In this document: positions 17,297 to 62,174 of the stretch, one piece after another
Numbering within the stretch: position 1 is the stretch's first letter
Layout of the letters: every line of letters starts with the position of its first letter
NCBI GenBank assembly: GCA_904846145.1
Contig: CAJGZL010000001.1
Coordinates: 496,001 to 560,000 of the forward strand
Direction: 5' to 3'
Origin: Psychrobacter immobilis
Lineage (GTDB): Bacteria > Pseudomonadota > Gammaproteobacteria > Pseudomonadales > Moraxellaceae
Length of the DNA: 64,000 bases
The notes under the pieces: model-generated
Databases searched by the model: none
What the model saw: only the letters and a program-made list of their open reading frames with translations
What the model was told of the DNA's origin: nothing
Translations under genes and position numbers: made by a program

Positions 17297-17342
17297 TTGT
17301 TAACATAATGACTGGTATCTTGTTAACAAAATGACTAATATC
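17297..17342 (+). promoter_or_regulatory. Two tandem 23-bp elements with a TTGTTAACA core before glcD
   Basis: Two abutting 23-bp units, 20 of 23 positions identical, each beginning TTGTTAACA and ending ATGACT-N2-TATC. They end 28 bp before the glcD start codon. TTGTTAACAA is itself a palindrome and fits the loose TNGT-N-ACNA style of operator used by FadR-type GntR regulators. The same core recurs three times at the same 23-bp spacing before the NCS1 permease gene (58251-58306). The direct repeats are visible; the operator role is inferred. Confidence 0.6.
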
Positions 17343-17370: not shown

Positions 17371-18846
17371 TTGGAGCACAACTCAAAAATAGATAGAGCA
17401 ACGCTAGTTCAGATGTTCCGTGAATTTATTGAATCTGAATATGTCATTGATGATCAAGAAACCCAAAAGCCTTTTGAGTGTGATGGCTTATCAGTATATT
17501 GTGATATGCCCCTTATCGTAGCCATACCCGAAACTGTTGAACAAGTTTGTAAAGTGATGCAGATTTGCTATCGCTATCAGATTCCAGTAGTGGCGCGCGG
17601 CGCAGGCACAGGCCTTTGTGCAGGGGCAATGCCTAATCCTGATGGTGTGTTACTGGTCATGTCAAGGTTTAAGCACATTCTTAATATCGATCCGCTTGCT
17701 CGTAGTGCTCGTCTGCAACCTGGCGTTCGTAACCTTGCCATCAGTGAAGCCGCGAGCTTTTATGGTCTTTATTACGGTCCCGATCCCTCCTCACAAATTG
17801 CCTGCTCAATCGGTGGTAACGTCGCTGAAAACTCAGGTGGTGTTCATTGTCTAAAATATGGTTTAACCACTCACAATTTACTCAAAGTTGAAATGGTGAC
17901 GGTTGAGGGCGATCTGATCAGCATCGGTAGTGAAGGACTTGACAGTAACGGGTTTGATCTAATGGCTCTCATTACGGGCTCTGAAGGTCTACTTGGCGTC
18001 ATTACTGAGGTCACTGTTAAGCTACTGCCGAGTCCTGAAAAGGCACAAGTTATTATGGCAGCCTTTAGCGATGTTCAAGCAGCAGGGGATGCCGTTGGTG
18101 CTGTCATTGCCAAAGGCATCATACCCGCAGGGCTTGAGATGATGGATAGCCCTGCCATTATCGCAGCCGAAGCGTTTGCTCATGCTGGCTATCCAATAGA
18201 TGCCCAAGCCGTGTTGCTCTGTGAACTAGATGGTAGCGAAGCTGAGGTTCAAGAGCAGATTGCAGAGGTCGAGCAGCTGTTTATTGAGCTTGGGGCAACT
18301 TCTACGCGCGTCTCGCAAAGCGAAGCAGAACGCGCGCTATTGTGGAAAGGTCGTAAGTCAGCGTTTCCAGCGGTAGGTCGCATCTCCCCCGATTATTACT
18401 GTATGGATGGCACTATTCCACGAGGTCAACTGGCTTATGTCTTGACCGAAATGCAAAAACTCTCTGAACACTATGGTCTAAAAGTTGCGAACGTATTCCA
18501 TGCTGGTGACGGCAATCTACATCCGCTTATTTTATTTGATGCCAATGTACCAGGCGAGCTTGAAAAGACCGAAGAATTCGGTAGTAAAATTTTAGAGCTT
18601 TGCGTAGCAGTCGGTGGTTGTATTACAGGCGAGCATGGTGTCGGTGTCGAAAAGATTCGTCAAATGGCTGTTCAATTCAACGATCAAGAGCTGACACAGT
18701 TTCATGCCATCAAACACGCTTTTGATCCTATTGGCACCCTAAACCCCGGTAAAGGCATTCCGATACTCAAACGCTGTCAGGAGTACCGAAGTCTTGATGA
18801 TATAAAATTTGAATCGGAAAACCAGTTAAAAGGAGATCTGGCATGA
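17371..18846 (+). CDS. glcD: Glycolate oxidase FAD-linked subunit GlcD
   Basis: The catalytic flavoprotein subunit that oxidises glycolate to glyoxylate. It has 491 residues. The N-terminal half is an FAD-binding PCMH domain (PVVARGAGTGLCAGAMP, IGGNVAENSGGVHCLKYGLT, GSEGLLGVITEVTVKLLP). The C-terminal half is an FAD-oxidase_C domain with VFHAGDGNLHPLILFD and GEHGVGVEKI. The start is TTG, supported by a GGAG ribosome site 7 bases upstream. It overlaps glcE by 4 bp (ATGA), which indicates translational coupling. The tandem 23-bp elements at 17297-17342 probably control the operon. D-lactate dehydrogenases are close relatives, but the GlcE and GlcF neighbours favour glycolate. Confidence 0.93.
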   Translation: MEHNSKIDRATLVQMFREFIESEYVIDDQETQKPFECDGLSVYCDMPLIVAIPETVEQVCKVMQICYRYQIPVVARGAGTGLCAGAMPNPDGVLLVMSRFKHILNIDPLARSARLQPGVRNLAISEAASFYGLYYGPDPSSQIACSIGGNVAENSGGVHCLKYGLTTHNLLKVEMVTVEGDLISIGSEGLDSNGFDLMALITGSEGLLGVITEVTVKLLPSPEKAQVIMAAFSDVQAAGDAVGAVIAKGIIPAGLEMMDSPAIIAAEAFAHAGYPIDAQAVLLCELDGSEAEVQEQIAEVEQLFIELGATSTRVSQSEAERALLWKGRKSAFPAVGRISPDYYCMDGTIPRGQLAYVLTEMQKLSEHYGLKVANVFHAGDGNLHPLILFDANVPGELEKTEEFGSKILELCVAVGGCITGEHGVGVEKIRQMAVQFNDQELTQFHAIKHAFDPIGTLNPGKGIPILKRCQEYRSLDDIKFESENQLKGDLA

Positions 18847-19919
18847 CAGACATCAGTCAGATGCTAATTGAGCGAGTAAAACAAGCCAATAAAGACGGCA
18901 CTAAGCTACAAATTATCGGCGGTGGTAGTAAAGCTTTTATGGGTCGCACTCCTACGGGCGAGCCTATCAATCTGAGCGAACATCGTGGTATTACCAGCTA
19001 TGAGCCCGTCGAATTGGTGCTTACAGCTCGAGCTGGAACGCCATTAATTGATATTCACCAAGCACTAGCAGAGCATAATCAATGTTTAGCGTTTGAGCCG
19101 CCATTGTTTGACAACCAAGCTACCTTAGGCGGTACATTAGCCTGTCATTTATCAGGACCTGCGCGACCTTGGAGTGGTTCAATCAGAGATCATGTGCTGG
19201 GCGTGCGTTTGATCAATGGGCATGCAGAGGAGCTACGCTTTGGCGGTCAAGTCATGAAAAACGTCGCTGGTTATGATGTCTCAAGGATGCAAGCGGGTGC
19301 TATGGGCACGTTAGGTATTATCACTGAAGTCAGTCTCAAAGTTATGCCTAGACCTGCTGCTACTGCGACTATCAAGCAACCAATGCCTGCTGCTCAAGCT
19401 ATTGAAACCATGAATCGTCTCTCTGCTCAATCCAAGCCATTAACAGGTGCTTGCTGGCTTGATAATCATCTTTATCTACGAGTAGCAGGCGCACAAAGCG
19501 CTGTCGACAGTGCCGTTGATCAATGGCAAGGGAAGATCTTACAAGAAGCAGAGGTCTTAGCAGACAACAATGACTTTTGGCTAAATCTGCGTGAACAGCA
19601 ATTGGATTACTTTTTGGGTTCAGAACCCTTATGGCGATTCTCAGTCAATAGCAATGCCGACCATAGTCTGCCCAATGAAAACTGGCTTATCGACTGGGGC
19701 GGTGCTCAGCGTTGGCTCCGTGGCGACTTTTCTACAGTAGAGCTTGAAAGCATTGCTGAGCGTATGGGCGGTCAAGTGAGCTGTTACCGTGGTGGCAATA
19801 GAGCGCAGGAAGTGTTTCATACTCAGCCAACAGCGCTACGCCAGCTTCACAAAAGACTTAAGCTTGCTTTTGATGCCAATGAAGTTTTCAATCCTGGTCG
19901 CTTGTATAGCTGGATGTGA
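18843..19919 (+). CDS. glcE: Glycolate oxidase subunit GlcE
   Basis: The second FAD-binding subunit of glycolate oxidase, 358 residues. It has a PCMH-type FAD domain (KLQIIGGGSKAFMGR, FEPPLFDNQATLGGTLACHLSGP, GGQVMKNVAGYDVSRMQAGAMGTLGIITEVSLKVMP) but lacks the FAD-oxidase_C catalytic half of GlcD. It begins inside the end of glcD with an ATGA overlap and is followed 19 bp later by glcF, so the three form one operon. The conserved C-terminal phrase FDANEVFNPGRLYSWM is typical. Confidence 0.92.
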   Translation: MTDISQMLIERVKQANKDGTKLQIIGGGSKAFMGRTPTGEPINLSEHRGITSYEPVELVLTARAGTPLIDIHQALAEHNQCLAFEPPLFDNQATLGGTLACHLSGPARPWSGSIRDHVLGVRLINGHAEELRFGGQVMKNVAGYDVSRMQAGAMGTLGIITEVSLKVMPRPAATATIKQPMPAAQAIETMNRLSAQSKPLTGACWLDNHLYLRVAGAQSAVDSAVDQWQGKILQEAEVLADNNDFWLNLREQQLDYFLGSEPLWRFSVNSNADHSLPNENWLIDWGGAQRWLRGDFSTVELESIAERMGGQVSCYRGGNRAQEVFHTQPTALRQLHKRLKLAFDANEVFNPGRLYSWM

Positions 19920-19938
19920 GCTTAATAAAAAGGAGCGC

Positions 19939-21162
19939 ATGATGCGAACCAAAATCAATGTTAAATATTTAGATCATCAAGATATCCAAGAAGCAGATGC
20001 TATTTTGCGTAGCTGCGTTCACTGCGGCTTTTGTAATGCTACCTGCCCCACTTATCAAGAATTAGGTGATGAACGTGATGGGCCTCGCGGTCGTATTTAT
20101 TTGATAAAGCAGATGCTTGAAACTGGCTCAGTTAGTGAAAAAACGCAACGGCATTTAGACCGTTGTCTGACTTGTCGTAGCTGCGAGACCACCTGCCCTT
20201 CTGGCGTAAAATATGGTCGCTTAGCTGAAATTGGTCGCGATATTATGGAGACTGAAGTAGCAAGACCTGCTGATCAAAAACTAACGCGCTGGTTGCTTAG
20301 ACAGATACTGCCTTACTCAAATCGATTTGGATTTCTGCTACGACTAGGGCAGCTGTTTCGCACGTTTTTACCACGCGACTTAAAAGCTAAAGTTCCTGTC
20401 AAGCAAGTTAAGCTTTCTATGCCTGCGCCGCAGCCACAGTCACACTTACGCCGTATGCTGGTATTAGAGGGCTGCGCGCAACCTTCAGCGACCCCTAATA
20501 CCAACATTGCAGCCACTCGCGTATTGGATAAACTTGGCATTAGCTTGTTTTCCGCGCCTAAAGCTGGATGCTGTGGTGCTGTCAGCTATCACATGACAGC
20601 TCACGAAGAAGGACTGGGCTTTATGCGGCGAAATATCGACGCCTGGTGGCCAGATATTGAATCAGGCATTGAGGCCATTGTCATTAATGCTTCAGGATGT
20701 GGCTCTATGGTTAAAGAGTATGGTGAAAAACTAAGTCACGATACTGTTTATGCAGCGAAAGCCAAGCGGGTCAGTGAATTAACTTGCGATCTAAGTGAGA
20801 TATTGATCAAAGAGGATTTAAGCAAGTTAGGATTAAAAAAATCAGAACATAAGACAGCGGTTCATTGCCCCTGCTCTTTACAACATGCCCAACAGTTAGG
20901 CGGTCATGTCGAGCAGATTTTACAACAAGCAGGTATTGAGCTTTCTCGTACACAAAACGGACACTTATGCTGCGGTTCAGCGGGTACTTACTCTATCCTG
21001 CAACCTGAATTGAGTCAGAAACTGCTGTCTAATAAATTGACCGACCTTACCGTGGGCAATCCTGATCAGATCGTCACTGCAAATATTGGTTGCCAGCTTC
21101 ACTTAGAAAGTCGATCTACAATCCCCGTTAAGCACTGGATTGAATTATTAGATGTGTCATAA
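19939..21162 (+). CDS. glcF: Glycolate oxidase iron-sulfur subunit GlcF
   Basis: Carries electrons from GlcDE to the respiratory chain through two [4Fe-4S] clusters. It has 407 residues, the same as E. coli GlcF. The first cluster motif is SCVHCGFCNATCP (Cys26, 29, 32, 36) and the second is CLTCRSCETTCPSG. Two CCG (cysteine-rich) domains follow, with GCCGAVSYH and LCCGSAGTYS. The start is one of two adjacent ATGs (19939 or 19942) behind AGGAG; I excluded 50 upstream in-frame codons that only overlap glcE. It is membrane-associated in relatives. Confidence 0.93.
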   Translation: MMRTKINVKYLDHQDIQEADAILRSCVHCGFCNATCPTYQELGDERDGPRGRIYLIKQMLETGSVSEKTQRHLDRCLTCRSCETTCPSGVKYGRLAEIGRDIMETEVARPADQKLTRWLLRQILPYSNRFGFLLRLGQLFRTFLPRDLKAKVPVKQVKLSMPAPQPQSHLRRMLVLEGCAQPSATPNTNIAATRVLDKLGISLFSAPKAGCCGAVSYHMTAHEEGLGFMRRNIDAWWPDIESGIEAIVINASGCGSMVKEYGEKLSHDTVYAAKAKRVSELTCDLSEILIKEDLSKLGLKKSEHKTAVHCPCSLQHAQQLGGHVEQILQQAGIELSRTQNGHLCCGSAGTYSILQPELSQKLLSNKLTDLTVGNPDQIVTANIGCQLHLESRSTIPVKHWIELLDVS

Positions 21163-52770: not shown

Positions 52771-52786
52771 CTGACCAAATGGTCAG
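52771..52786 (+). promoter_or_regulatory. RutR-type TetR operator before the NCS2 permease
   Basis: CTGACCAAATGGTCAG has perfect 7-bp arms around two bases and matches the known RutR motif TTGACCA-N2-TGGTCAA at almost every position. It lies 150 bp before the permease ATG. A RutR-like TetR gene lies at 54624-55289. Confidence 0.75.
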
Positions 52787-52936: not shown

Positions 52937-54343
52937 ATGAGTGAAGTCAAAGGTAATCCTGATCTGCTGTATGGTCTACATGACCGTCCAGCGCCAATGA
53001 AAGCTTTCTTAGGTGCTGTTCAGCACGTTTTAGCTGCTTTTGTTGGCGTTATCACACCCTCATTAATCATCGGTGGTGCTTTAGGTTTAGGGGAACATAT
53101 TCCCTACCTTATTAGTATGGCGCTGATGGTATCTGGTGTTGCTACTTTTATCCAAACCCGTACAATTGGTCCTATAGGTTCAGGACTTATGGCACTGCAA
53201 GGAACCAGTTTTGGTTTCTTAGCTGCGGTATTAGCCGCAGGTTTTGTCGTAAAAAACCGCGGCGGTAGTCCAGAGGAGATTCTCTCAGTTATCTTTGGCG
53301 TCACCTTTTTAGCCGCTTTTGTCGAGATATTCTTGAGTCAGTTCATCACTAGGCTTAAATCGTTAATGAGCCCTATCGTTACCGGTTGCGTTATCGTCAC
53401 CATTGGTTTATCACTGACTAAGGTTGGTCTAACCGATCTAGCAGGCGGGGTTGGTGCCGAAGATTTTGGTAGCATACCGAATTTATTGCTAGGCGGTGGG
53501 GTATTAATTAGCGTCGTGCTTATTAGTATCGTCCCTAATAAAGTGATTCGTTCTAGCGCTATTTTTATTGGTCTAATATTAGGCTTAGTTGTCGCCGCAT
53601 TTATGGGTCGCATTGACTTCTCATTAGTATCACAAGCGCCATTGTTAACAGTACCTGTGCCATTTAAATTTGGTTTTGCTTTTGATTGGCAAGCTTTTAT
53701 TCCTATTGCCTTTATGTATATCATTACCAGTATTGAGACCGCAGGTGATCTAACGGCAACGTCCATGATCTCAGGCGAGCCTATCAAAGGCCCACTCTAT
53801 GAGAAACGCATTAAAGGTGGGGTGTTAGCCGATGGTGTAAACTCTGCCATTGCGGGTATATTTAACAGCTTCCCTGTTACTACTTTTAGTCAGAATAACG
53901 GTGTCATTCAGATGACGGGTATTGCCAGTCGTTATGTTGGCTTCTACGTTGGTGGTATCTTGTTCTTTATGGGTCTGTTCCCCATTCTTGGTGCTATCTT
54001 CACTCAGCTACCAAAGCCTGTCGTTGGCGGAGTTACGCTACTCATGTTTGCAACCGTAGCTACTGCTGGTATTCGTATTTTATCAACGGTTAACTTTACT
54101 CATCGTAATATTCTGATCATTGCCACCTCTTTGGGTCTTGGTTTGGGCGTCGCTTTTGTGCCTGACGTGTTCGCACAAATGCCACAGATGTTCCGTAATA
54201 TCTTTGGTTCAGCAATTACGATGTCAGGTGTCATCGCTATTGTTCTTGATACGATTTTGCCGAAGAATTATGGTGTTGAGTATGATACTGAAGAGCAGCA
54301 TTTAGAAGATGGTCTTAAACCACCTAGACAAAAGGTATCTTAA
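52937..54343 (+). CDS. NCS2 family purine (urate/xanthine) permease
   Basis: An inner-membrane proton symporter of the nucleobase-ascorbate family, 468 residues with about 14 hydrophobic segments. Family features are AVQHVLAAFVGVITPSLIIGGALGL, QTRTIGPIGSGLMALQGTSFGFL (substrate region), ITSIETAGDLTATSMISGEPI with the conserved Glu, GVLADGVNSAIAGIFNSFPVTTFSQNNGVIQMTGIASRYVG, and PKPVVGG. This is the UacT/XanQ branch. Its position next to urate-degradation genes makes uric acid or xanthine the likely substrate. A RutR-type operator precedes it and a strong hairpin follows. Confidence 0.88.
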   Translation: MSEVKGNPDLLYGLHDRPAPMKAFLGAVQHVLAAFVGVITPSLIIGGALGLGEHIPYLISMALMVSGVATFIQTRTIGPIGSGLMALQGTSFGFLAAVLAAGFVVKNRGGSPEEILSVIFGVTFLAAFVEIFLSQFITRLKSLMSPIVTGCVIVTIGLSLTKVGLTDLAGGVGAEDFGSIPNLLLGGGVLISVVLISIVPNKVIRSSAIFIGLILGLVVAAFMGRIDFSLVSQAPLLTVPVPFKFGFAFDWQAFIPIAFMYIITSIETAGDLTATSMISGEPIKGPLYEKRIKGGVLADGVNSAIAGIFNSFPVTTFSQNNGVIQMTGIASRYVGFYVGGILFFMGLFPILGAIFTQLPKPVVGGVTLLMFATVATAGIRILSTVNFTHRNILIIATSLGLGLGVAFVPDVFAQMPQMFRNIFGSAITMSGVIAIVLDTILPKNYGVEYDTEEQHLEDGLKPPRQKVS

Positions 54344-54377
54344 TTTAGAACCTTTGCTTTAAAATAATAGTGTGAAT

Positions 54378-54409
54378 AGGGCGCAGTAAATATATCTTTA
54401 CTGCGCCCT
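54378..54409 (+). terminator. Strong hairpin after the NCS2 permease
   Basis: Perfect 13-bp arms AGGGCGCAGTAAA and TTTACTGCGCCCT around a 6-nt loop. No T run follows on the plus strand, so termination may need a protein factor. Confidence 0.55.
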
Positions 54410-54623
54410 AAGCTTATCTAGATTGGTGTATAACGACTAGGAGGCTTGCAATTGTCAAAACGAGATAAAATATTTTTTAGTTATATGAAATACATAACTG
54501 ATGCATTGGTTTTATAGATCAACATACAAAATAAGTATATTTGCTTAAACTTTTATAAGCTTATCAACCTATCTGAGCTAACTTATCGTAGTTTTCGCCT
54601 TTATCTCTTTGATAGGTACTGTT

Positions 54624-55289
54624 TTATTCAATACCACAACCGCGCAAGATAAACGGCACCAAAAAGTCAGCGGCTCGTGCTTCATCTTCTTTATCGTAAG
54701 CTTCTTTTTGCATTAAGCCGACGATTTCAGTTTCGAATTCAGCATAACGTTGGGTAGTGGCCCAGATCAGTATTAGTAACTGTAGGGGATCAGCAATACC
54801 AATCTTGCCTTGGCTGTACCATGACGTCATCACTTGAGTCTTGTCAAGTGCCCAATCTCTCATCGTTGTTGACATAAAATCATGTAAGTGCGGTGCACCG
54901 CCGATGACCTCAATAGCAAATAGCTTATGACGATTGGGGTGGGCAAAAGCTTGATGTAACTTAGTACGTACAAACTTCTCTATGACTGTCTTGGGATCAC
55001 TATCGACCGTCATAGTGACTAGGCCATCATTCCATTCTTCAATGATGGCGCGCAATACTACTTTGTAAAGATTGCGCTTATTCTTAAAGTAATAGTGAAT
55101 ATTGGCTTTGGGTAGCCCTGCTCGATCAGCGATACCTTGCATGGTAGCACCGCGATAGCTTTGCAGGACGAACTCTTCTTCAGCAGCATGTAAGATAATG
55201 GCCTGATTATGGGCGCGTATACTGTGCTGACTTCGATGAAGGGATGTCTCTGTTGCATCTGAATCTTTGAGGTGATTATTTTGAGTCAT
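54624..55289 (-). CDS. TetR family regulator, RutR-like
   Basis: A 221-residue repressor-type protein. An unstructured 30-residue N-terminal part precedes the helix-turn-helix (AIILHAAEEEFVLQSYRGATMQGIADRAGLPKANIHYYFKNKRNLYKVV), a good match to the RutR/YcdC branch, and the C-terminal ligand domain has that branch's PNRHKLFAIEVIGGAPHLHDFM. E. coli RutR senses pyrimidines and purine-catabolism genes are among its targets. It is divergent from uraD, with a RutR-type operator between them (55417-55432). Autoregulation and control of the urate genes are inferred. The ligand could be a purine breakdown product. Confidence 0.85.
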   Translation of the reverse strand: MTQNNHLKDSDATETSLHRSQHSIRAHNQAIILHAAEEEFVLQSYRGATMQGIADRAGLPKANIHYYFKNKRNLYKVVLRAIIEEWNDGLVTMTVDSDPKTVIEKFVRTKLHQAFAHPNRHKLFAIEVIGGAPHLHDFMSTTMRDWALDKTQVMTSWYSQGKIGIADPLQLLILIWATTQRYAEFETEIVGLMQKEAYDKEDEARAADFLVPFILRGCGIE

Positions 55290-55416
55290 AACAGTCGTAA
55301 CCTAGATTATTTCAGGATTTTTACTAAGAATATACGGCATTATCTCTAATATAGAAAATAAATATAACTTTTTTTGGCATATACCGCGACAAATGGAAGT
55401 TTTTTGTATAAAATAG

Positions 55417-55432
55417 TTGACCAAATAGTCAG
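55417..55432 (+). promoter_or_regulatory. RutR-type operator between tetR and uraD
   Basis: TTGACCAAATAGTCAG is the same operator with one arm mismatch (TAGTCA for TGGTCA). A second, weaker AGACCA-N2-TATGAT copy lies 40 bp further on (55456-55468). It can control both divergent genes. Confidence 0.7.
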
Positions 55433-55570
55433 GTTTTAGCACAATAGACAATATTAGACCAAATATGATTTGATTAATATCACTTTAATAGATGATTTTT
55501 CGGTTTAAACTGTCATCAATTAGCAAATGCTAATTTTATAAATTATAAATGATAAGAAAAGGATGCCACT

Positions 55571-56092
55571 ATGAGCTTAACCTTAGCGCAATTCAATCAG
55601 TTAGACAATGCAGAGGCTACTGCAACGCTGCTGACTTGCTGTACTAGCAGTGCTTGGGCGAGCAGTTTAGCTGCTGAAAGACCTTTCGATGATATCGAGG
55701 CTATGCTAAGCGCTAGTGATGAGGCTTGGAATAAAGCACAGGCTGATGAGGCCAATTTAATAGAAGCTTTTGATGGTCATCCGCAAATCGGTAATGTTGC
55801 TACGCTCAAAGAGAAGTACCGCAATACGCAAGACAGTGCCGCTCACGAGCAATCAGGAGCTAGCGAAGCGGATGATCAAGTCTTAGAGGACCTTGCGCAA
55901 GGTAATCAAGACTATCTTGATAAGTTTGGCTTTATCTTTATTGTTTTTGCGACGGGCAAAAGCGCTCAGCAAATGCTAGACCTATTGATGGCTCGTCTGC
56001 CAAATGATCGTGACACTGAGCTGGCTAATGCTTCAGCTGAGCAAAACAAAATCACTCGCTTACGTATTCAAAAGCTATTTGGCCAAGCTTAA
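55571..56092 (+). CDS. uraD: OHCU decarboxylase UraD
   Basis: Decarboxylates 2-oxo-4-hydroxy-4-carboxy-5-ureidoimidazoline (OHCU) to S-allantoin, the last step of urate oxidation. It has 173 residues. The family pattern is seen in CCTSSAWASSLAAERPFDD, DEANLIEAFDGHPQIGNVATLKEK (the catalytic His in FDGHPQIG), and DYLDKFGFIFIVFATGKSAQQMLDLLMARLPND. A GGATG ribosome site precedes the ATG. It starts the uraD-uraH-puuD run, with a RutR-type site 140 bp upstream. Confidence 0.93.
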   Translation: MSLTLAQFNQLDNAEATATLLTCCTSSAWASSLAAERPFDDIEAMLSASDEAWNKAQADEANLIEAFDGHPQIGNVATLKEKYRNTQDSAAHEQSGASEADDQVLEDLAQGNQDYLDKFGFIFIVFATGKSAQQMLDLLMARLPNDRDTELANASAEQNKITRLRIQKLFGQA

Positions 56093-56164
56093 GCGGCACT
56101 TTATAACTAAGCATTAATTGCTTGTATTCAAATAAATCTAATTATTATAAATAAAGGAAATACT

Positions 56165-56533
56165 ATGTCAGCTACTCTATCCTCACATATTTTAGACACT
56201 CATCTTGGTAAGCCTGCGGCTGATATCGACCTAACTCTGCATCGCATCAAAGACGGTGGTGAGGCCACTTTACTAGCGAATGGTACCACTAACGACGATG
56301 GTCGCGTAACGCCAGATGGCTGGCAGTTTGACTCAGCTGTTGATAGCAGCGAGCAGAATCTAAGCGCTGGTCGTTATACCATAACTTTCGATACGCAATC
56401 TTATTTTGACACGCAAAAGCTAAAAGCTTTTTATCCACAAGTTATCATTGATTTTGTGGTGAGCGATGACGGTCATTATCATATCCCGCTGTTACTTAGC
56501 ACGCACGGCTATGGTACTTATCGCGGCTCATAA
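56165..56533 (+). CDS. uraH: 5-hydroxyisourate hydrolase UraH (transthyretin-like)
   Basis: Hydrolyses 5-hydroxyisourate to OHCU. It has 122 residues and the transthyretin-like family marks: SSHILDTHLGKPAADIDLTLHRI at the start (catalytic His in ILDTHLG), TNDDGRV, and the C-terminal HIPLLLSTHGYGTYRGS with the invariant YRGS. It lies 72 bp behind uraD and upstream of puuD, so the three steps from urate to allantoin are encoded together. Confidence 0.95.
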   Translation: MSATLSSHILDTHLGKPAADIDLTLHRIKDGGEATLLANGTTNDDGRVTPDGWQFDSAVDSSEQNLSAGRYTITFDTQSYFDTQKLKAFYPQVIIDFVVSDDGHYHIPLLLSTHGYGTYRGS

Positions 56534-56534
56534 T

Positions 56535-56570
56535 TAAAAAGCCTTGAGTAGTTAGATGCTCAAGGCTTAA
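56535..56570 (+). terminator. Hairpin between uraH and puuD
   Basis: AAGCCTTGAG and CTCAAGGCTT arms around a 10-nt loop. The following T content is low, so it may be a processing or attenuation structure rather than a full stop. Confidence 0.5.
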
Positions 56571-56695
56571 GTAAGCGGCAACAGCCATAAATTAGTACAG
56601 ATATAAAAAGGCAAGGAAGCGCTTGTAACACCGAGCAAGTAAGTAATAGTCGTTACAAGTTACCAAGACATAGCAACAAAAAAGGACACTGCCAC

Positions 56696-57988
56696 ATGGG
56701 CGCATATCTTCTCGATTGGTTAGCATTATTTTTCCGCTGGTTTCACGTTATCGCTGGGGTGGCATGGATTGGTGCCTCATTTTACTTTGTATGGCTAGAT
56801 ATGAGTCTGCAGAAGCCACCCGAATGGAAGGCCAAAAAAGGTATTTCAGGTGACTTATGGGCAGTACATGGTGGTGGGTTTTATGAAATCGCTAAGTACA
56901 AGCTTGACCCTGAAGAGATGCCAAAGACTTTGCATTGGTTCAAATGGGAAGCTTATACGACATGGCTGACTGGTGCGGCGATGATGGCTATCGTTTACTA
57001 CGCCAATGCAACGGCTTACTTAATTGATCCAAGTAAGGTTGATTTTGGTAGTAATATCGGAGCTATTGCTACAAGTATTTTATTCTTACTCATAACCTAC
57101 GCTATTTATGAAGGGGTTGTCCGTAGCCGTATCGGCAAAAATAAGATGGTTTTTAGTATCACTATCTTTGTACTGATGATTATTGCCACTTATATTTCAT
57201 ATCAGTTATTTAGTGATCGCGCATCATTCATTCACGTTGGTGCCATTTTGGGTACGATCATGGCCGGTAACGTATTCTTCGGAATTATGCCCGCTCAGCG
57301 TGCGCTAGTAGACTGCGTCCGTAAAGGTGAAAAACCAGGACCAGAAGTCGCAGATTTAGCATTAATGGCCAGAAACCGTTCAGTGATGAACAACTACTTT
57401 ACTCTACCACTCATCTTTACCATGATTAGTAATCACTATCCAATGATGTATTCTCATGCACAGGGTTGGTTGGTATTGGTATTCGTCGGTGTAATTACCG
57501 CAACAGCTCGTCACTACTTTAACCAAAAGCATTTGGGTCATCATCAACCAAAATACTTAATTATTCCAGCAATAGCGACTGTATTGCTCATTATTTGGAT
57601 GCGTCCTGCACCGATTGAGCCGCTACCTGTTCCACCCGTAGCGGCGGCTCAGCCAGTAGCAGATATTGCGCCACCTACTGGTGAAGCTGTCGTCGCTGGA
57701 GCGGCTCCAATTGCAGGCGCTGCGGCTGTTCCTGTAACTGCCTCAGCTGATGATGCGGTGATAGGTGTTGTACAGGCAAAATGTAGCGTTTGCCATATGG
57801 CACAACCCACACAAGCAGGATTCAATGCGCCACCAGCGGGTATTATTATTCAGACTCCTGAAGACATGAAAACTTGGAAAGCTAAAATTGTAACTGCAGT
57901 ACAGACGGGTTATATGCCGTTAGGTAACATCACTCAGCTGACTGATGAAGAGCGCTCACAGATCGTCGCTTATGCTTCAGGGCTATAA
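56696..57988 (+). CDS. puuD: Membrane-bound urate oxidase PuuD with C-terminal cytochrome c
   Basis: Oxidises urate to 5-hydroxyisourate at the membrane, passing electrons to the respiratory chain instead of to oxygen. It has 430 residues. The N-terminal part (to about 300) has eight or so membrane helices, starting WLALFFRWFHVIAGVAWIGASFYFVWLD and containing WAVHGGGFYEIAKY and GIMPAQRALV, as in PuuD. A Pro/Ala-rich linker (about 303-357) leads to a cytochrome c domain with the haem motif CSVCH (residues 363-367) and a later MPLGN methionine ligand. It follows uraD and uraH and is ended by a terminator. Confidence 0.93.
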   Translation: MGAYLLDWLALFFRWFHVIAGVAWIGASFYFVWLDMSLQKPPEWKAKKGISGDLWAVHGGGFYEIAKYKLDPEEMPKTLHWFKWEAYTTWLTGAAMMAIVYYANATAYLIDPSKVDFGSNIGAIATSILFLLITYAIYEGVVRSRIGKNKMVFSITIFVLMIIATYISYQLFSDRASFIHVGAILGTIMAGNVFFGIMPAQRALVDCVRKGEKPGPEVADLALMARNRSVMNNYFTLPLIFTMISNHYPMMYSHAQGWLVLVFVGVITATARHYFNQKHLGHHQPKYLIIPAIATVLLIIWMRPAPIEPLPVPPVAAAQPVADIAPPTGEAVVAGAAPIAGAAAVPVTASADDAVIGVVQAKCSVCHMAQPTQAGFNAPPAGIIIQTPEDMKTWKAKIVTAVQTGYMPLGNITQLTDEERSQIVAYASGL

Positions 57989-58031
57989 TATTGAATCTTG
58001 ACATTTAAATTCTGATAACTCTTATATCTAT

Positions 58032-58062
58032 AAAATAGCCAGTCCATGACTGGCTATTTTTA
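58032..58062 (+). terminator. Terminator after puuD
   Basis: AAAATAGCCAGT and ACTGGCTATTTT arms around a 5-nt loop, followed by T residues. Confidence 0.85.
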
Positions 58063-58250
58063 TGGGTAAATAAGCTGCTTTTGATTCTATTCACCTTCAT
58101 TTTATCTCCCTCTTATACTGGCCAACTAGACACAGATTTGTCTTAATCTCAAATATTATTCATTATTTTGCATTTTGATAGGTCATTTCTGCCCATTTTC
58201 ATTGAAATAAGTGAATAATTATCTTGACCAATAACTGATATATCCTTAAA

Positions 58251-58306
58251 GTGTTAACAATAAATATATATAATTGTTAACAATATACTATGTGAAGTGT
58301 TAATAA
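58251..58306 (+). promoter_or_regulatory. Three 23-bp-phased TTGTTAACAA-like elements before the NCS1 permease
   Basis: GTGTTAACAA (58251), TTGTTAACAA (58274) and GTGTTAATAA (58297) begin exactly 23 bp apart, with different A/T-rich spacers. The last ends 39 bp before the ATG. The same core and the same period occur before glcD (17297-17342). Spacing of about two helical turns suits a multimeric regulator bound on one face of DNA. The repeats are visible; the regulator is not identified. Confidence 0.65.
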
Positions 58307-58345
58307 TATCGGTTTTAGTTGATTTCACTTCACAAGGAGAAAGGG

Positions 58346-59857
58346 ATGTCTAGTGTCAACAAGCAAGGAAATCAGCTTAATAAACAATATGATGGTCAAC
58401 TCTACGACTGTAAAACTTTTAATCCAGAACGTAAGAACTCAAGGCTCTATAACGAAGACTTAGCCCCTTTACAGCCTGAGCAGCGTAACTGGGGCTGGTT
58501 CTCTATATTTAATGTCTGGTCTAATGATATTCAAAGCTTGTTTGGCTATACCCTTGCTGCCTCCTTGTTTTTGAGTTATGGCTTGAGCGGTTGGTGGGTG
58601 ATGGCTGCTATTATCTGCGCAGGCTTTATTGTCATGTTGATGGTGAATTTGACTGGTAAACCTAGTGTCAAATATGGCGTGCCCTTTCCTGTACTGATAC
58701 GTGCAAGCATGGGAGTCAATGGCGCTAACTTGCCCGCTGTACTACGAGCGATCATCGGTATTTTTTGGTATGGAGTGCAGACCTATTTTGCTTCAACCGC
58801 CGTTGCCATCTTACTAGCGGTATTTATGGGTAGCTCAGATAGCACTTTTTTAGGCTTAAACGGTACGGCATGGTTGGCCTTTGTCATCGTCTGGGTTTTT
58901 CAGATTATGCTGTTCTGGGCAGGTATAGAGCCTATCAAGCACTTTTTGAACTGGGCAGGTCCACTAGTCTATGTGGTGATGGTCGTATTAATGGGTATGA
59001 TTTGGTATCAATCAGGCTCAGAGCTGATACCAGCGATCAACTCTATCTTTACTGGCGGTAGCGACTACGCGGGAACATCTCTTCAAGCCTTTACCGCTAT
59101 TGTTGGGACTATGGTGGCCTACTTTGCCGCTGTGGTGATTAACTTTGGTGATTTTTCACGCTTTTTATGTAGCGAGCGTGATATGCGTAAGGGCAATTTG
59201 ATTGGTCTACCTATCAATATGCTATTTTTCTCTTTCATTGCTTTAATAATTACCGCAGGAACTTTAGTGTTGTTCGGTGAGGCGTTGACTAATCCATCAG
59301 ATATTGTTGAACGTGTTGACTCACTACCTTTGACTATTATTGCCGCTTTAACGTTTTTTGCCGCTACAGTTGGTATCAACATGGTTGCCAACTTCATTCC
59401 ACCCGCTTATGATTTAGCAAACTTGTTTCCAAAGCATATTAACTTTCGTCGTGGTGGTTTGATCACCGCTGTGATTGCATTTTTTGTAGGGGCGCTTTGG
59501 TTGTCTTTTATTAGTCAGATTGGCATTGTCGGTTTTGTGAATACGGTTGGGGCTATTATCGCACCGTTCTTTGGAATTTTGGTCATTGATTACTATGTTA
59601 TCAGAGGCCAACATATTGATATGAATGATCTATTCTCAGACCGTCCAGATGGCGCTTATTACTATACAAAAGGCTGGAATATTCGTGGGCTAATTGCTTT
59701 TGCAATCGGTGCACTATTCTCTGTCGCTACCGTATTAATACCTGTATTTGCCAAATTTGAAGGCTATGGCTTTTTACTAGGTGCAGCTATTGGCGGTATT
59801 GTTTACTGGGTATTGATGCGGCAGTTCACAGTTGAACCCAATCAGCTGACAAAATAG
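58346..59857 (+). CDS. NCS1 family purine/allantoin-type permease
   Basis: An inner-membrane symporter of the NCS1 (cytosine/uracil/thiamine/allantoin) family, 503 residues with about 12 hydrophobic segments. It begins with the usual hydrophilic stretch SRLYNEDLAPLQPEQRNWGWFSIFNVWSNDIQS, the family hallmark in helix 1. Others are VKYGVPFPVLIRASMGVNGANLPAVLRAIIGIFWYGVQTYF and VINFGDFSRFLCSERDMRKGNLIGLPIN. The ATG at 58346 behind GGAG is preferred to an upstream TTG. Its place among urate and allantoin genes favours allantoin (PucI-like), but uracil or other substrates are possible. Confidence 0.85.
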   Translation: MSSVNKQGNQLNKQYDGQLYDCKTFNPERKNSRLYNEDLAPLQPEQRNWGWFSIFNVWSNDIQSLFGYTLAASLFLSYGLSGWWVMAAIICAGFIVMLMVNLTGKPSVKYGVPFPVLIRASMGVNGANLPAVLRAIIGIFWYGVQTYFASTAVAILLAVFMGSSDSTFLGLNGTAWLAFVIVWVFQIMLFWAGIEPIKHFLNWAGPLVYVVMVVLMGMIWYQSGSELIPAINSIFTGGSDYAGTSLQAFTAIVGTMVAYFAAVVINFGDFSRFLCSERDMRKGNLIGLPINMLFFSFIALIITAGTLVLFGEALTNPSDIVERVDSLPLTIIAALTFFAATVGINMVANFIPPAYDLANLFPKHINFRRGGLITAVIAFFVGALWLSFISQIGIVGFVNTVGAIIAPFFGILVIDYYVIRGQHIDMNDLFSDRPDGAYYYTKGWNIRGLIAFAIGALFSVATVLIPVFAKFEGYGFLLGAAIGGIVYWVLMRQFTVEPNQLTK

Positions 59858-59863
59858 CTAAAA

Positions 59864-59908
59864 TAGAGAGAATATTAGGATAAATGATATAATATTCTCT
59901 TTATTTTT
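59864..59908 (+). terminator. Terminator after the NCS1 permease
   Basis: Perfect 11-bp arms AGAGAATATTA and TAATATTCTCT around a 12-nt loop, followed by TTATTTTT. Confidence 0.8.
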
Positions 59909-59937
59909 ACTTTTATCAATACAAGCTGATAATTTAC

Positions 59938-59953
59938 TTGACCAAATGGTCAG
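59938..59953 (+). promoter_or_regulatory. RutR-type TetR operator upstream of puuE
   Basis: TTGACCAAATGGTCAG fits the RutR consensus at nearly every position. It lies 552 bp before the puuE start, but only about 280 bp if the 272-bp element between them is discounted. Confidence 0.7.
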
Positions 59954-60157
59954 ATGCCCTTAAAGTAAAAGCCATAACTGCATTTTGTATCTGCTTATGA
60001 GTGTTTAACACGCTTGAGCAACATTCAAAGATTATTCGGCACCTCTTTGCCACCTCATTATCTTCAAGTAACCTCTGTAATTGCTAGATGAAAGCTAAGC
60101 GTCTACTATGATGCTTACCATTTATATACGAACCTAAATAATTAATTGCTTATTAGA

Positions 60158-60429
60158 GTTAGGGTCTGTTGAGCATTCATAAATGAGCACTGCTGATAGC
60201 TAAAATGGTTCTAGTCTAAGTAAAAATCGCAGGCAATGCAGATGCCTTGGCTAGATTTTTACAACGAATAGAGCAATTTTAGCATCAGCCTGCAAGGACA
60301 GGATTCTTTTTTGTCGCTTCGTCATTAAAAAGATCCGCTTAGAATGACTAAACTAGATATTTTTAATCTAGAATCGACTAAAAAATAGTCACTGTCAGTG
60401 CCATGATCGAATGTTCAACAGACCCTAAC
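60158..60429. mobile_element. MITE-like element with 21-bp terminal inverted repeats
   Basis: A 272-bp segment starts GTTAGGGTCTGTTGAGCATT and ends with its reverse complement, 20 of 21 positions matching. The ends can be read as GGGTCT...AGACCC flanked by TA on both sides, consistent with a TA target duplication. It contains no coding frame but has internal inverted repeats: AGCTAAAATG near 60196 with AATTTTAGC near 60276, and CTAGAT/ATCTAG near 60355. This is typical of a non-autonomous MITE. The mobilising transposase is not in the window. Confidence 0.75.
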
Positions 60430-60505
60430 CTCTTACCAATCTAAGCCTAAAAAACTACCGAGTCCTGAGCATAATGACTGCTCTTCATATGAAGGAATAT
60501 TGACC

Positions 60506-61498
60506 ATGAGCCAAAAAATCACCAGCGATTTTGATCAAGACGCTTATCCTCGCGACCTAAAAGGCTATGGCGAAAATCCGCCTGATCCTAAATGGCCAGG
60601 TGGTGCAAAGATTGCGGTACAGTTTGTATTGAATATCGAAGAAGGCGCCGAAAACAGTGTGATTCATGGTGATGGTCAATCAGAACGGTTTTTATCAGAT
60701 GTACTAGGTACACCGGAGTTTACCAACCGCCATCAGTCTATCGAGTCGGCATTTGAATACGGTAGCCGTGTTGGTGTATGGCGCGTACTCGATGTGTTCA
60801 AAGAGTATGGCTTGCCGATTACTACTTTTACTTGTGCCGCGGCAGCTGAGAAAACGCCGCATATCATTGAGCGCGTATTAGAGGATGGTCATGAAGTGGC
60901 TAGCCACAGTCTGCGCTGGATCACTTATCAATACATGTACCGTGAGACTGAACGTGAGCACGTGCGCCGAGCGACTGAAATATTTGAGCAGATGTTAGGC
61001 AAGCAGCCATTAGGATGGTACACGGGGCGCGATAGCCCTAACACACGCGAGCTAGTTGCTGAACAAGGCGGCTATATGTATGACTCAGACTCTTATGGTG
61101 ATGAGCTACCGTATTGGTTAGACGTCAAAGTACAAGATGGTGAGGTTATCACTCGTAAACCGCATTTGGTGATACCGTATACGTTAGAGACCAACGATAT
61201 GCGTTTTTCTTCAAGCCCTGGCTTTACTAACGCTGAACCTTTTTACCAATACCTAAAAGATAGCTTTGATACTCTTTATGAAGAGGGCGATAAAGACGGT
61301 AAAAACCAGCCAAAAATGCTAACTATCGGTTTGCATTGTCGTATTATCGGTCGTGCCGGTCGTATCACTGCGCTTAAACAATTTTTGAAATATATCACCA
61401 GTAAGCCCGACGTTTGGGTATGCCGCCGCGATGAAATCGCCAAGCATTGGTATGAAAACCATCCAGCCACAGCGAATAACACAGTCAGCTGGATGTAA
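60506..61498 (+). CDS. puuE: Allantoinase PuuE (polysaccharide-deacetylase type)
   Basis: A metal-dependent enzyme that opens the ring of allantoin to allantoate, unrelated to the amidohydrolase-type allantoinase. It has 330 residues. It matches the PuuE group: YPRDLKGYGENPPDPKWPGGAKIAVQFVLNIEEGAENSV near the start, GVWRVLDVFKEYGLPITTFTCAAAAEKTP, EVASHSLRWITYQY and GWYTGRDSPNTRELVAEQGGYMYDSDSYGDELPYW. The ATG at 60506 follows GAAGGA; a TTG two codons upstream is less likely. It precedes allA. Confidence 0.93.
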   Translation: MSQKITSDFDQDAYPRDLKGYGENPPDPKWPGGAKIAVQFVLNIEEGAENSVIHGDGQSERFLSDVLGTPEFTNRHQSIESAFEYGSRVGVWRVLDVFKEYGLPITTFTCAAAAEKTPHIIERVLEDGHEVASHSLRWITYQYMYRETEREHVRRATEIFEQMLGKQPLGWYTGRDSPNTRELVAEQGGYMYDSDSYGDELPYWLDVKVQDGEVITRKPHLVIPYTLETNDMRFSSSPGFTNAEPFYQYLKDSFDTLYEEGDKDGKNQPKMLTIGLHCRIIGRAGRITALKQFLKYITSKPDVWVCRRDEIAKHWYENHPATANNTVSWM

Positions 61499-61613
61499 CG
61501 TTAACCCTCTTTTATCTTAGCGATTTTACTGCCTTTTTGATAACGGTTCAAGCCGGATATGCATCTGCAGTAAAGTAACTGATACTGATACTGACAATAA
61601 GTAAGGCAACATT

Positions 61614-62174
61614 ATGAAAACGACAATAATTGCTCAACCTCTAACTAAAGCGGCATTCGCACCTTTCGGCTCAGTCATTGAGCCTTATAATGATGAAGAA
61701 AAATGTCCTGAGAACAGCTGGGATATCAATCGTGGCTACGCCTGTCGTCACAATGCCATCTCAAAAGTTCAAAATGATGGCGGTGAAGTTGGTTTTAGTA
61801 TTTTTCGTACTAAAAGACGCGATTGCCCTATTACGCTATCCGTTATGGAATACCATCCGTTTGGCTCGCAAGCCTTTTTTTCTATGAATTCAACAGACTA
61901 TCTAGTTGTTGTAGCCAAAGCTGGCGAGCCGCCAAAATCAGCGGATGATTTAGAAGTGTTCTATGCCTACTCGCATCAAGGCGTGCAGTATGACGCAAAC
62001 GTTTGGCATCATCCGCTACTGGCACTAAATGCTGATTGCGATTTTTTAGTAGTTGATCGCATCAATGGTGATGGTAATAACTGCCATGAGTTCGAGATTG
62101 ACGATTGGGAAGTTTGCATTGATGTCTCAGCTGAGCAAGCTAAGTCAGAAAGAGCAAAGGCTAACGCTGTTTAG
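61614..62174 (+). CDS. allA: Ureidoglycolate lyase AllA
   Basis: Splits S-ureidoglycolate into glyoxylate and urea. It has 186 residues. The family pattern starts IIAQPLTKAAFAPFGSVIEP and has EYHPFGSQAFFSM (metal and substrate His), YLVVVAKAGEPPKSADDLEVFYAYSHQGVQYDANVWHHPLLAL and FLVVDRINGDGNNCHEFEI. It follows puuE by 115 bp. The allantoicase needed to make its substrate from PuuE's product is not in this window. Glyoxylate would be used by malate synthase G (8256-10454). Confidence 0.93.
   Translation: MKTTIIAQPLTKAAFAPFGSVIEPYNDEEKCPENSWDINRGYACRHNAISKVQNDGGEVGFSIFRTKRRDCPITLSVMEYHPFGSQAFFSMNSTDYLVVVAKAGEPPKSADDLEVFYAYSHQGVQYDANVWHHPLLALNADCDFLVVDRINGDGNNCHEFEIDDWEVCIDVSAEQAKSERAKANAV

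Follow-up and report, generated by a model that had tools for sequence, protein, structure and literature searches.

Within a 64,000-nucleotide stretch of the Psychrobacter immobilis genome (the window), three short palindrome-like cores lie before a gene for an NCS1-family permease. Judged from sequence, they are very probably docking sites of a GntR-type regulator that is encoded elsewhere in the genome and would control genes for the use of allantoin, a purine waste product. More specifically, we consider it probable that the cores are palindromic operator boxes of a single FCD-domain GntR repressor encoded at a racemase divergon outside the window, that cooperating dimers of this repressor would block the permease promoter until a ligand of the ureide pathway releases them, and that the glycolate oxidase genes glcDEF have been added to its targets in this species.

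A preliminary description of the window had reported three cores at a 23-bp period before the permease, and the same core and period before glcD, and all of these are present (Table 1). It had also spoken of conserved 10-bp cores set among unrelated spacers. This holds at the permease for the spacers and for cores 1 and 2, but core 3 is imperfect, with ATAA instead of ACAA in its right half, and at glcD the two 23-bp units are identical at 20 of 23 positions, so that the glcD pair looks like a tandem duplication. Such pairs are rare. We searched the whole 3.25-Mb genome (G000), with the reversed pattern as control, and found that TTGTTAACAA-N13-TTGTTAACAA at up to 3 mismatches matches three times, always at the permease or glcD promoter, against no match for the control. 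The spacing-tolerant pattern TGTTAACN{3,30}GTTAACA occurs in exactly three places, again with a control of 0: the glcD promoter, the permease promoter and the gntR/racemase divergon, where three cores lie 13 bp apart. The genome-wide search proposed in the preliminary description thus finds pairs at promoters only. Single exact copies of TTGTTAACAA are weaker evidence than pairs (7 against 3 in the control), and four of the seven fall in these three promoters.

The divergon supplies a candidate for the binding protein. Its GntR gene encodes a helix-turn-helix domain (PF00392, E=2.7e-09) and an FCD domain (PF07729, E=4.6e-17), both above cut-off, which is the domain combination of the FadR/FCD subfamily, and the box TTGT-TA-ACAA agrees with the palindromic TKGT/ACMA operators of that subfamily, in which GT and AC stand 2-3 bases apart. 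Because the third core site is this regulator's own divergent promoter, and because the genome has no further FCD match at E<=0.001, we propose it as the protein that binds the cores. The divergently transcribed Asp/Glu/hydantoin racemase probably acts on allantoin. Downstream of it lie a second NCS1 permease gene and then an alanine dehydrogenase gene (L117:10583-11698); alanine dehydrogenases of other species use glyoxylate, and this one might do the same.

The distribution of cores and regulator across the genus argues for the same link. Among 105 Psychrobacter genomes, 21 hold an orthologue of the regulator (at least 73% identity), while no other match at E<=1e-10 exceeds 39% identity. All 21 have the racemase gene divergent from the regulator gene and at least two cores (<=2 mismatches) upstream of the latter, at 13-bp spacing in 19; the exceptions are G072 (20 and 26 bp) and G103 (23, 25 and 19 bp). 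A 23-bp pair at <=2 mismatches occurs in 16 of the 105 genomes, namely in 15 of the 21 with the regulator and in 1 of the 84 without it (Fisher p=1.5e-12, related genomes being treated as independent). In the lone regulator-less genome, G047, the pair (L217) overlaps the end of an open frame, and we judge it chance-like from its position and the reading frames. Over the 21 regulator-bearing genomes the spacing-tolerant forward pattern matches 57 times and its control 6 times, in 4 genomes (counts summed by hand); a few single matches are therefore expected by chance. Cores also stand beside other, related genes. In G064 a 23-bp pair separates an HbpS-like gene from a CoA-ligase-type gene, the latter followed by AllG, an oxamate carbamoyltransferase subunit. 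G101 and G076 have three cores at 13-bp spacing in a divergon of an NCS1 permease with an amidohydrolase (profiled in the G101 copy).

The permease promoter itself shows what has been kept. Permease orthologues (at least 73% identity) were found in 23 genomes, with a 42%-identical protein of G073 excluded, and their promoters carry the pair in 13 of the 16 genomes with the regulator and in none of the 7 without it (p=4.9e-4). G029, whose permease is 87% identical, has neither regulator nor cores. The third core is common only to the same-species genome G027, and the other 11 promoters have two. The 13 promoters, which include two genomes of one species and other near relatives, align without indels, and conservation in bits per column is 2.0 in both the -35 and the -10 hexamer, 1.66 between them, 2.0 in core 1, 1.15 in the spacer, 1.87 in core 2 and 1.31 in the next spacer. 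Cores and spacing are thus kept while the spacer varies, and together with the control of 0 this supports, for the permease, the earlier proposal of phased sites over chance or simple duplication. A promoter scan alone does no better here than on shuffled sequence (2 found, mean of shuffles 2.5). A similar -35/-10 pair, TTGACC...TACAGT, is kept in the core-less G029, G064 and G102, and so the permease promoter can exist without the operator.

The boxes, how well they are conserved, their joint occurrence with the regulator gene and the anatomy of the promoters are read directly from the DNA; from them we infer binding, repression, cooperativity and a ligand in the following way. Each TTGT-TA-ACAA box would receive one GntR dimer. 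Since 23 bp is close to two helical turns and 13 bp is one turn less, neighbouring dimers would share nearly one angular position on the helix and bind next to each other in a cooperative manner, both at the targets and, one turn closer, at the regulator's own divergon. At the permease, core 1 covers the final two positions of the predicted -10 hexamer and would also cover the likely start site, a position suited to repression in which bound dimers block RNA polymerase. A ligand from the ureide pathway (allantoin, ureidoglycolate or glyoxylate) would then release the dimers. In this species glcDEF would have joined the regulon, perhaps through duplication of a 23-bp unit.

Similar arrangements occur beyond the genus. 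In another genus of the same family (g15, perhaps Acinetobacter), 16 genomes hold an FCD regulator at 33-36% identity, and TTGTNNACAA-like boxes stand exactly 23 bp apart at all 16 of these FCD-GntR loci (<=1 mismatch over both boxes). An NCS1 permease gene, its product 37-38% identical to the window permease, adjoins the regulator at 15 of the 16; none was found beside the regulator in G255 (L231). Searched genome-wide for the exact pattern at 21-23 bp spacing, 13 of the 16 genomes give the gntR pair, the control gives a single match over the 16 together, and three additional places appear in three genomes (G205, G240 and G255). We also examined 66 permease loci outside Psychrobacter, mostly from Halomonas and its kin by title. 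Pairs lie just upstream of the racemase gene at 35 of them, spaced by 21 bp (19 loci), 22 bp (15 loci) or 23 bp (1 locus, Zobellella), and an FCD-GntR gene lies within the retrieved DNA at 25 of these 35; the same test gave no pair at the other 31, some of which are incomplete. Twelve genomes picked from the 35 were searched whole, and the exact pattern occurs once each in 7 (control 1). In shuffled sequences no more than about 0.01 pairs are expected for each distance and group. At the level of the order, 64 of 390 genomes matched with FCD proteins at 33-43% identity. At the 29 such loci examined besides our own, no 21-23 bp pair was present, and at 27 neither these permeases nor the racemase lay within the 1.5-kb flanks (L264 and L265 being the exceptions). 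Most of these proteins are therefore probably other regulators, and we do not count them as the same one.

Several observations weigh against a single repressor acting through phased boxes. The regulator and the permease are both present in G064, G072 and G102, yet the permease promoter there has no cores, and 6 of the 21 regulator-bearing genomes lack any 23-bp pair at <=2 mismatches. At <=3 mismatches 35 of the 105 genomes match, and the counts over the genus are 46 for the forward pattern and 26 for the control (by hand), a background so high that only the <=2-mismatch set was used. Three of the seven exact copies of TTGTTAACAA in the own genome lie outside the three promoters, a number that the control also reaches. 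Binding to one face of the helix is plausible, but spacings of 13, 19-20 and 25-26 bp are also present at the regulator gene, and these are not all compatible with one angular offset. At L264, an order-level FCD gene stands beside a racemase and an NCS1 permease without such a pair. In the regulator tree, the proteins of Psychrobacter, g15 and the Halomonadaceae fall into distinct clades. The Halomonadaceae are split off by a supported branch; the remaining deep branches have weak support and several long branches come together, so that we do not claim orthology of the whole system across families. The 23-bp-like spacing common to the groups may be old or may have been reached more than once. 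As a tentative extension, which we think possible though doubtful, the operators through which FCD-GntR regulators control ureide (allantoin/hydantoin) genes could follow two-turn phasing in general. Regulator clades whose boxes differ at the centre would then have retained or arrived at almost equal spacings (21-22 bp in Halomonas and its kin, 23 bp at Psychrobacter targets and in g15), and the distance between boxes (13 bp at the regulator's own gene, 23 bp at targets) would set how strongly dimers cooperate, letting one repressor exert graded control.

Other explanations are less likely. The regulator could be the right one and yet work as an activator, bound upstream of or at a -35 element. 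One core of the racemase promoter overlaps a possible -35 (TTGTTA-17-TAAAGT, found by eye), which would also suit an activator, and the title of one paper names a positively regulating GntR factor (PMC4609117); the permease cores, however, sit at and downstream of the predicted -10, where they would block RNA polymerase, and the GntR-family proteins UgmR and NanR are described as repressors (PMC12694930, PMC8012715). We regard activation as unlikely. Binding by the TetR/RutR-like regulator of the same cluster (54624-55289) is very unlikely, and we reject it. Its gene is the nearest regulator gene among the proteins searched and lies inside the purine cluster, but the RutR box motif, TTGACCANNTGGTCAA, has no match within 3 mismatches at 58251-58306. 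Its best box-like matches fall instead in three other intergenic regions of the cluster, at 52771, 55417 and 59938, and the cores track the FCD-GntR gene across genomes and occur at its own divergent promoter. That the cores are functionless products of chance or simple tandem duplication is hardly credible, being strongly opposed at the permease by cores kept without indels in 13 genomes around a variable spacer, by the control of 0 in the own genome and by the co-occurrence of pairs and regulator, although many of the weak pairs in the <=3-mismatch genus scan are chance and the duplicated look of the glcD pair means that this origin could still apply there.

The proposed repressor's reach into glycolate metabolism appears to be narrow. 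We sought glcD in 22 genomes (the 21 with the regulator and G029) and found it in 13 at E<=1e-100; cores precede it only in G000 and G027, which are one species. None of the other 11 has comparable cores, and no core with fewer than 2 mismatches lies in the 600 bp upstream; in G101 and G076 two 2-mismatch cores stand there 32 bp apart. A promoter scan at glcD found nothing. The glcD cores are real in the sequence but would be recent or species-bound, and the regulator perhaps controls the glycolate genes too in this one species. The joint glyoxylate-linked regulon of the preliminary description therefore survives as a small regulon at allantoin-type genes, and its general glycolate arm is not upheld beyond this species. 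The glcD cores also differ from the GlcC type of box, which is listed with 3 nt between GT and AC (PMC4494728): at glcD the arrangement is GT-N2-AC.

The permease belongs to a cluster that runs from a pbuX-type permease through the TetR/RutR-like regulator, uraD, hydroxyisourate hydrolase, urate oxidase (PF06181, plus a weak cytochrome c match) and the NCS1 permease to the allantoinase puuE and a ureidoglycolate lyase-like protein. The permease substrate is likely allantoin, although the allantoin-permease and ureidoglycolate-lyase models both matched below cut-off. RutR-like palindromes of the TTGACCAAATGGTCAG type, with 1-2 mismatches, lie in intergenic DNA of the cluster at 52771-52786, 55417-55432 and 59938-59953. 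The window holds 6 RutR-like matches where 2.65 are expected, and 9 of 100 shuffles reach 6, so that they are not significant by number; the location of the best three stands out, and they possibly mark a second regulon in the same cluster.

Some further sites were seen in passing. A lone exact TTGTTAACAA at L156:1501, about 0.3 Mb from the window, stands shortly upstream of a sodium:dicarboxylate symporter gene and could be a further target or chance. In G101 and G076, two TGTTAACA cores 33 bp apart precede a mechanosensitive channel gene (L207:5000, L208:5032); the distance equals 23 + 10, and the pair may be chance. The spacing-tolerant matches in L207/L208 and L211-L216 were judged chance-like by position and reading frames, the L207 gene alone being profiled. 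A 22-bp pair stands before an ankyrin-repeat protein gene in G080 (L210). In G073 a 27%-identical FCD protein is encoded near the 42%-identical NCS1 permease, and TTGTATACAA boxes lie in the vicinity at spacings other than 23 bp (L145:228 and 454; L184), perhaps another variant of regulator and box.

Table 1. Features of the window and the candidate regulator gene.
Feature	Position	Strand	Remark
glcD core 1, TTGTTAACAT	17297..17306	+	
glcD core 2, TTGTTAACAA	17320..17329	+	start 23 bp after glcD core 1
glcDEF, glycolate oxidase	17371..21162	+	GlcE and GlcF above cut-off; GlcD below (529.9 of 567.9 bits)
Purine/urate-to-allantoin cluster with permease	52937..62174	.	profile matches
Predicted sigma-70-type promoter of permease, TTGACC-17-TAAAGT	58224..58252	+	both hexamers invariant in 13 genomes
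Permease core 1, GTGTTAACAA	58251..58260	+	overlaps end of -10 hexamer and likely transcription start; invariant in the 13 genus genomes with the permease pair
Permease core 2, TTGTTAACAA	58274..58283	+	perfect palindrome; start 23 bp after core 1; 1.87 bits/column (13 genomes)
Permease core 3, GTGTTAATAA	58297..58306	+	imperfect; start 23 bp after core 2; this species only (G000, G027)
NCS1 permease, allantoin type, 503 aa	58346..59857	+	Pfam PF02133 E=6.7e-83; best NCBIfam match allantoin permease, below cut-off
FCD-domain GntR regulator gene	G000:C1:1969325-1970038		about 1.4 Mb from purine cluster; divergent from Asp/Glu/hydantoin racemase gene

Overall, an unexplained spaced motif can now be read as a regulon that is open to testing and has a candidate binder. 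It offers a defined system in which to ask how the distance between boxes adjusts cooperation within the large GntR family. The arrangement suggests that purine catabolism in one cluster is split between two regulators, and glycolate oxidation seems to have been added to the regulon in one species.

Parts of the system have close parallels. HpxS is a FadR-subfamily GntR regulator of hypoxanthine/allantoin use and is linked to an allantoin racemase. Compared by description only, the regulator proposed here resembles HpxS in its subfamily, its GT-N2-AC palindromic box and its racemase linkage, whereas here one of the targets is a permease gene distant from that of the regulator, with boxes 23 bp apart. 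The preliminary description knew of no operator of this type and suggested a new regulon; the regulon itself does appear new, but an operator class with a two-base gap between GT and AC, HpxS among its members, is already on record for the FadR subfamily, and the box agrees with it (PMC4494728). The string 'allanto' is absent from the main text of that paper. In the open-licence literature, as represented by titles, the starts of abstracts and passages, we found no description of the regulon, of the link to a racemase-divergent regulator or of the strict spacing, and neither core string appears among the listed entries on GntR operators. UgmR (PA1520) of Pseudomonas aeruginosa is described as a GntR-family repressor that binds upstream of gcl and the allantoin gene cluster and is released by urate (PMC12694930). 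By description it is likewise a GntR-family regulator tied to allantoin genes; unlike UgmR, the regulator here is encoded some 1.4 Mb away from the purine cluster. NanR of Escherichia coli, a GntR-type repressor with three dimers bound cooperatively on close repeats (PMC8012715), sets a precedent for such an arrangement, although its target is a (GGTATA)3 repeat instead of spaced palindromes and its ligand is N-acetylneuraminate. The paired boxes also resemble the double sites of 29 FadR-subfamily divergons, where a relatively constant distance between two sites, given without a figure in the text of that section, was read as cooperative (PMC4494728). Thus the box type, the regulator family and cooperative double sites are already known, and what appears new, against the literature searched, is the regulon, its link to a racemase-divergent regulator and the strict spacing of its boxes.
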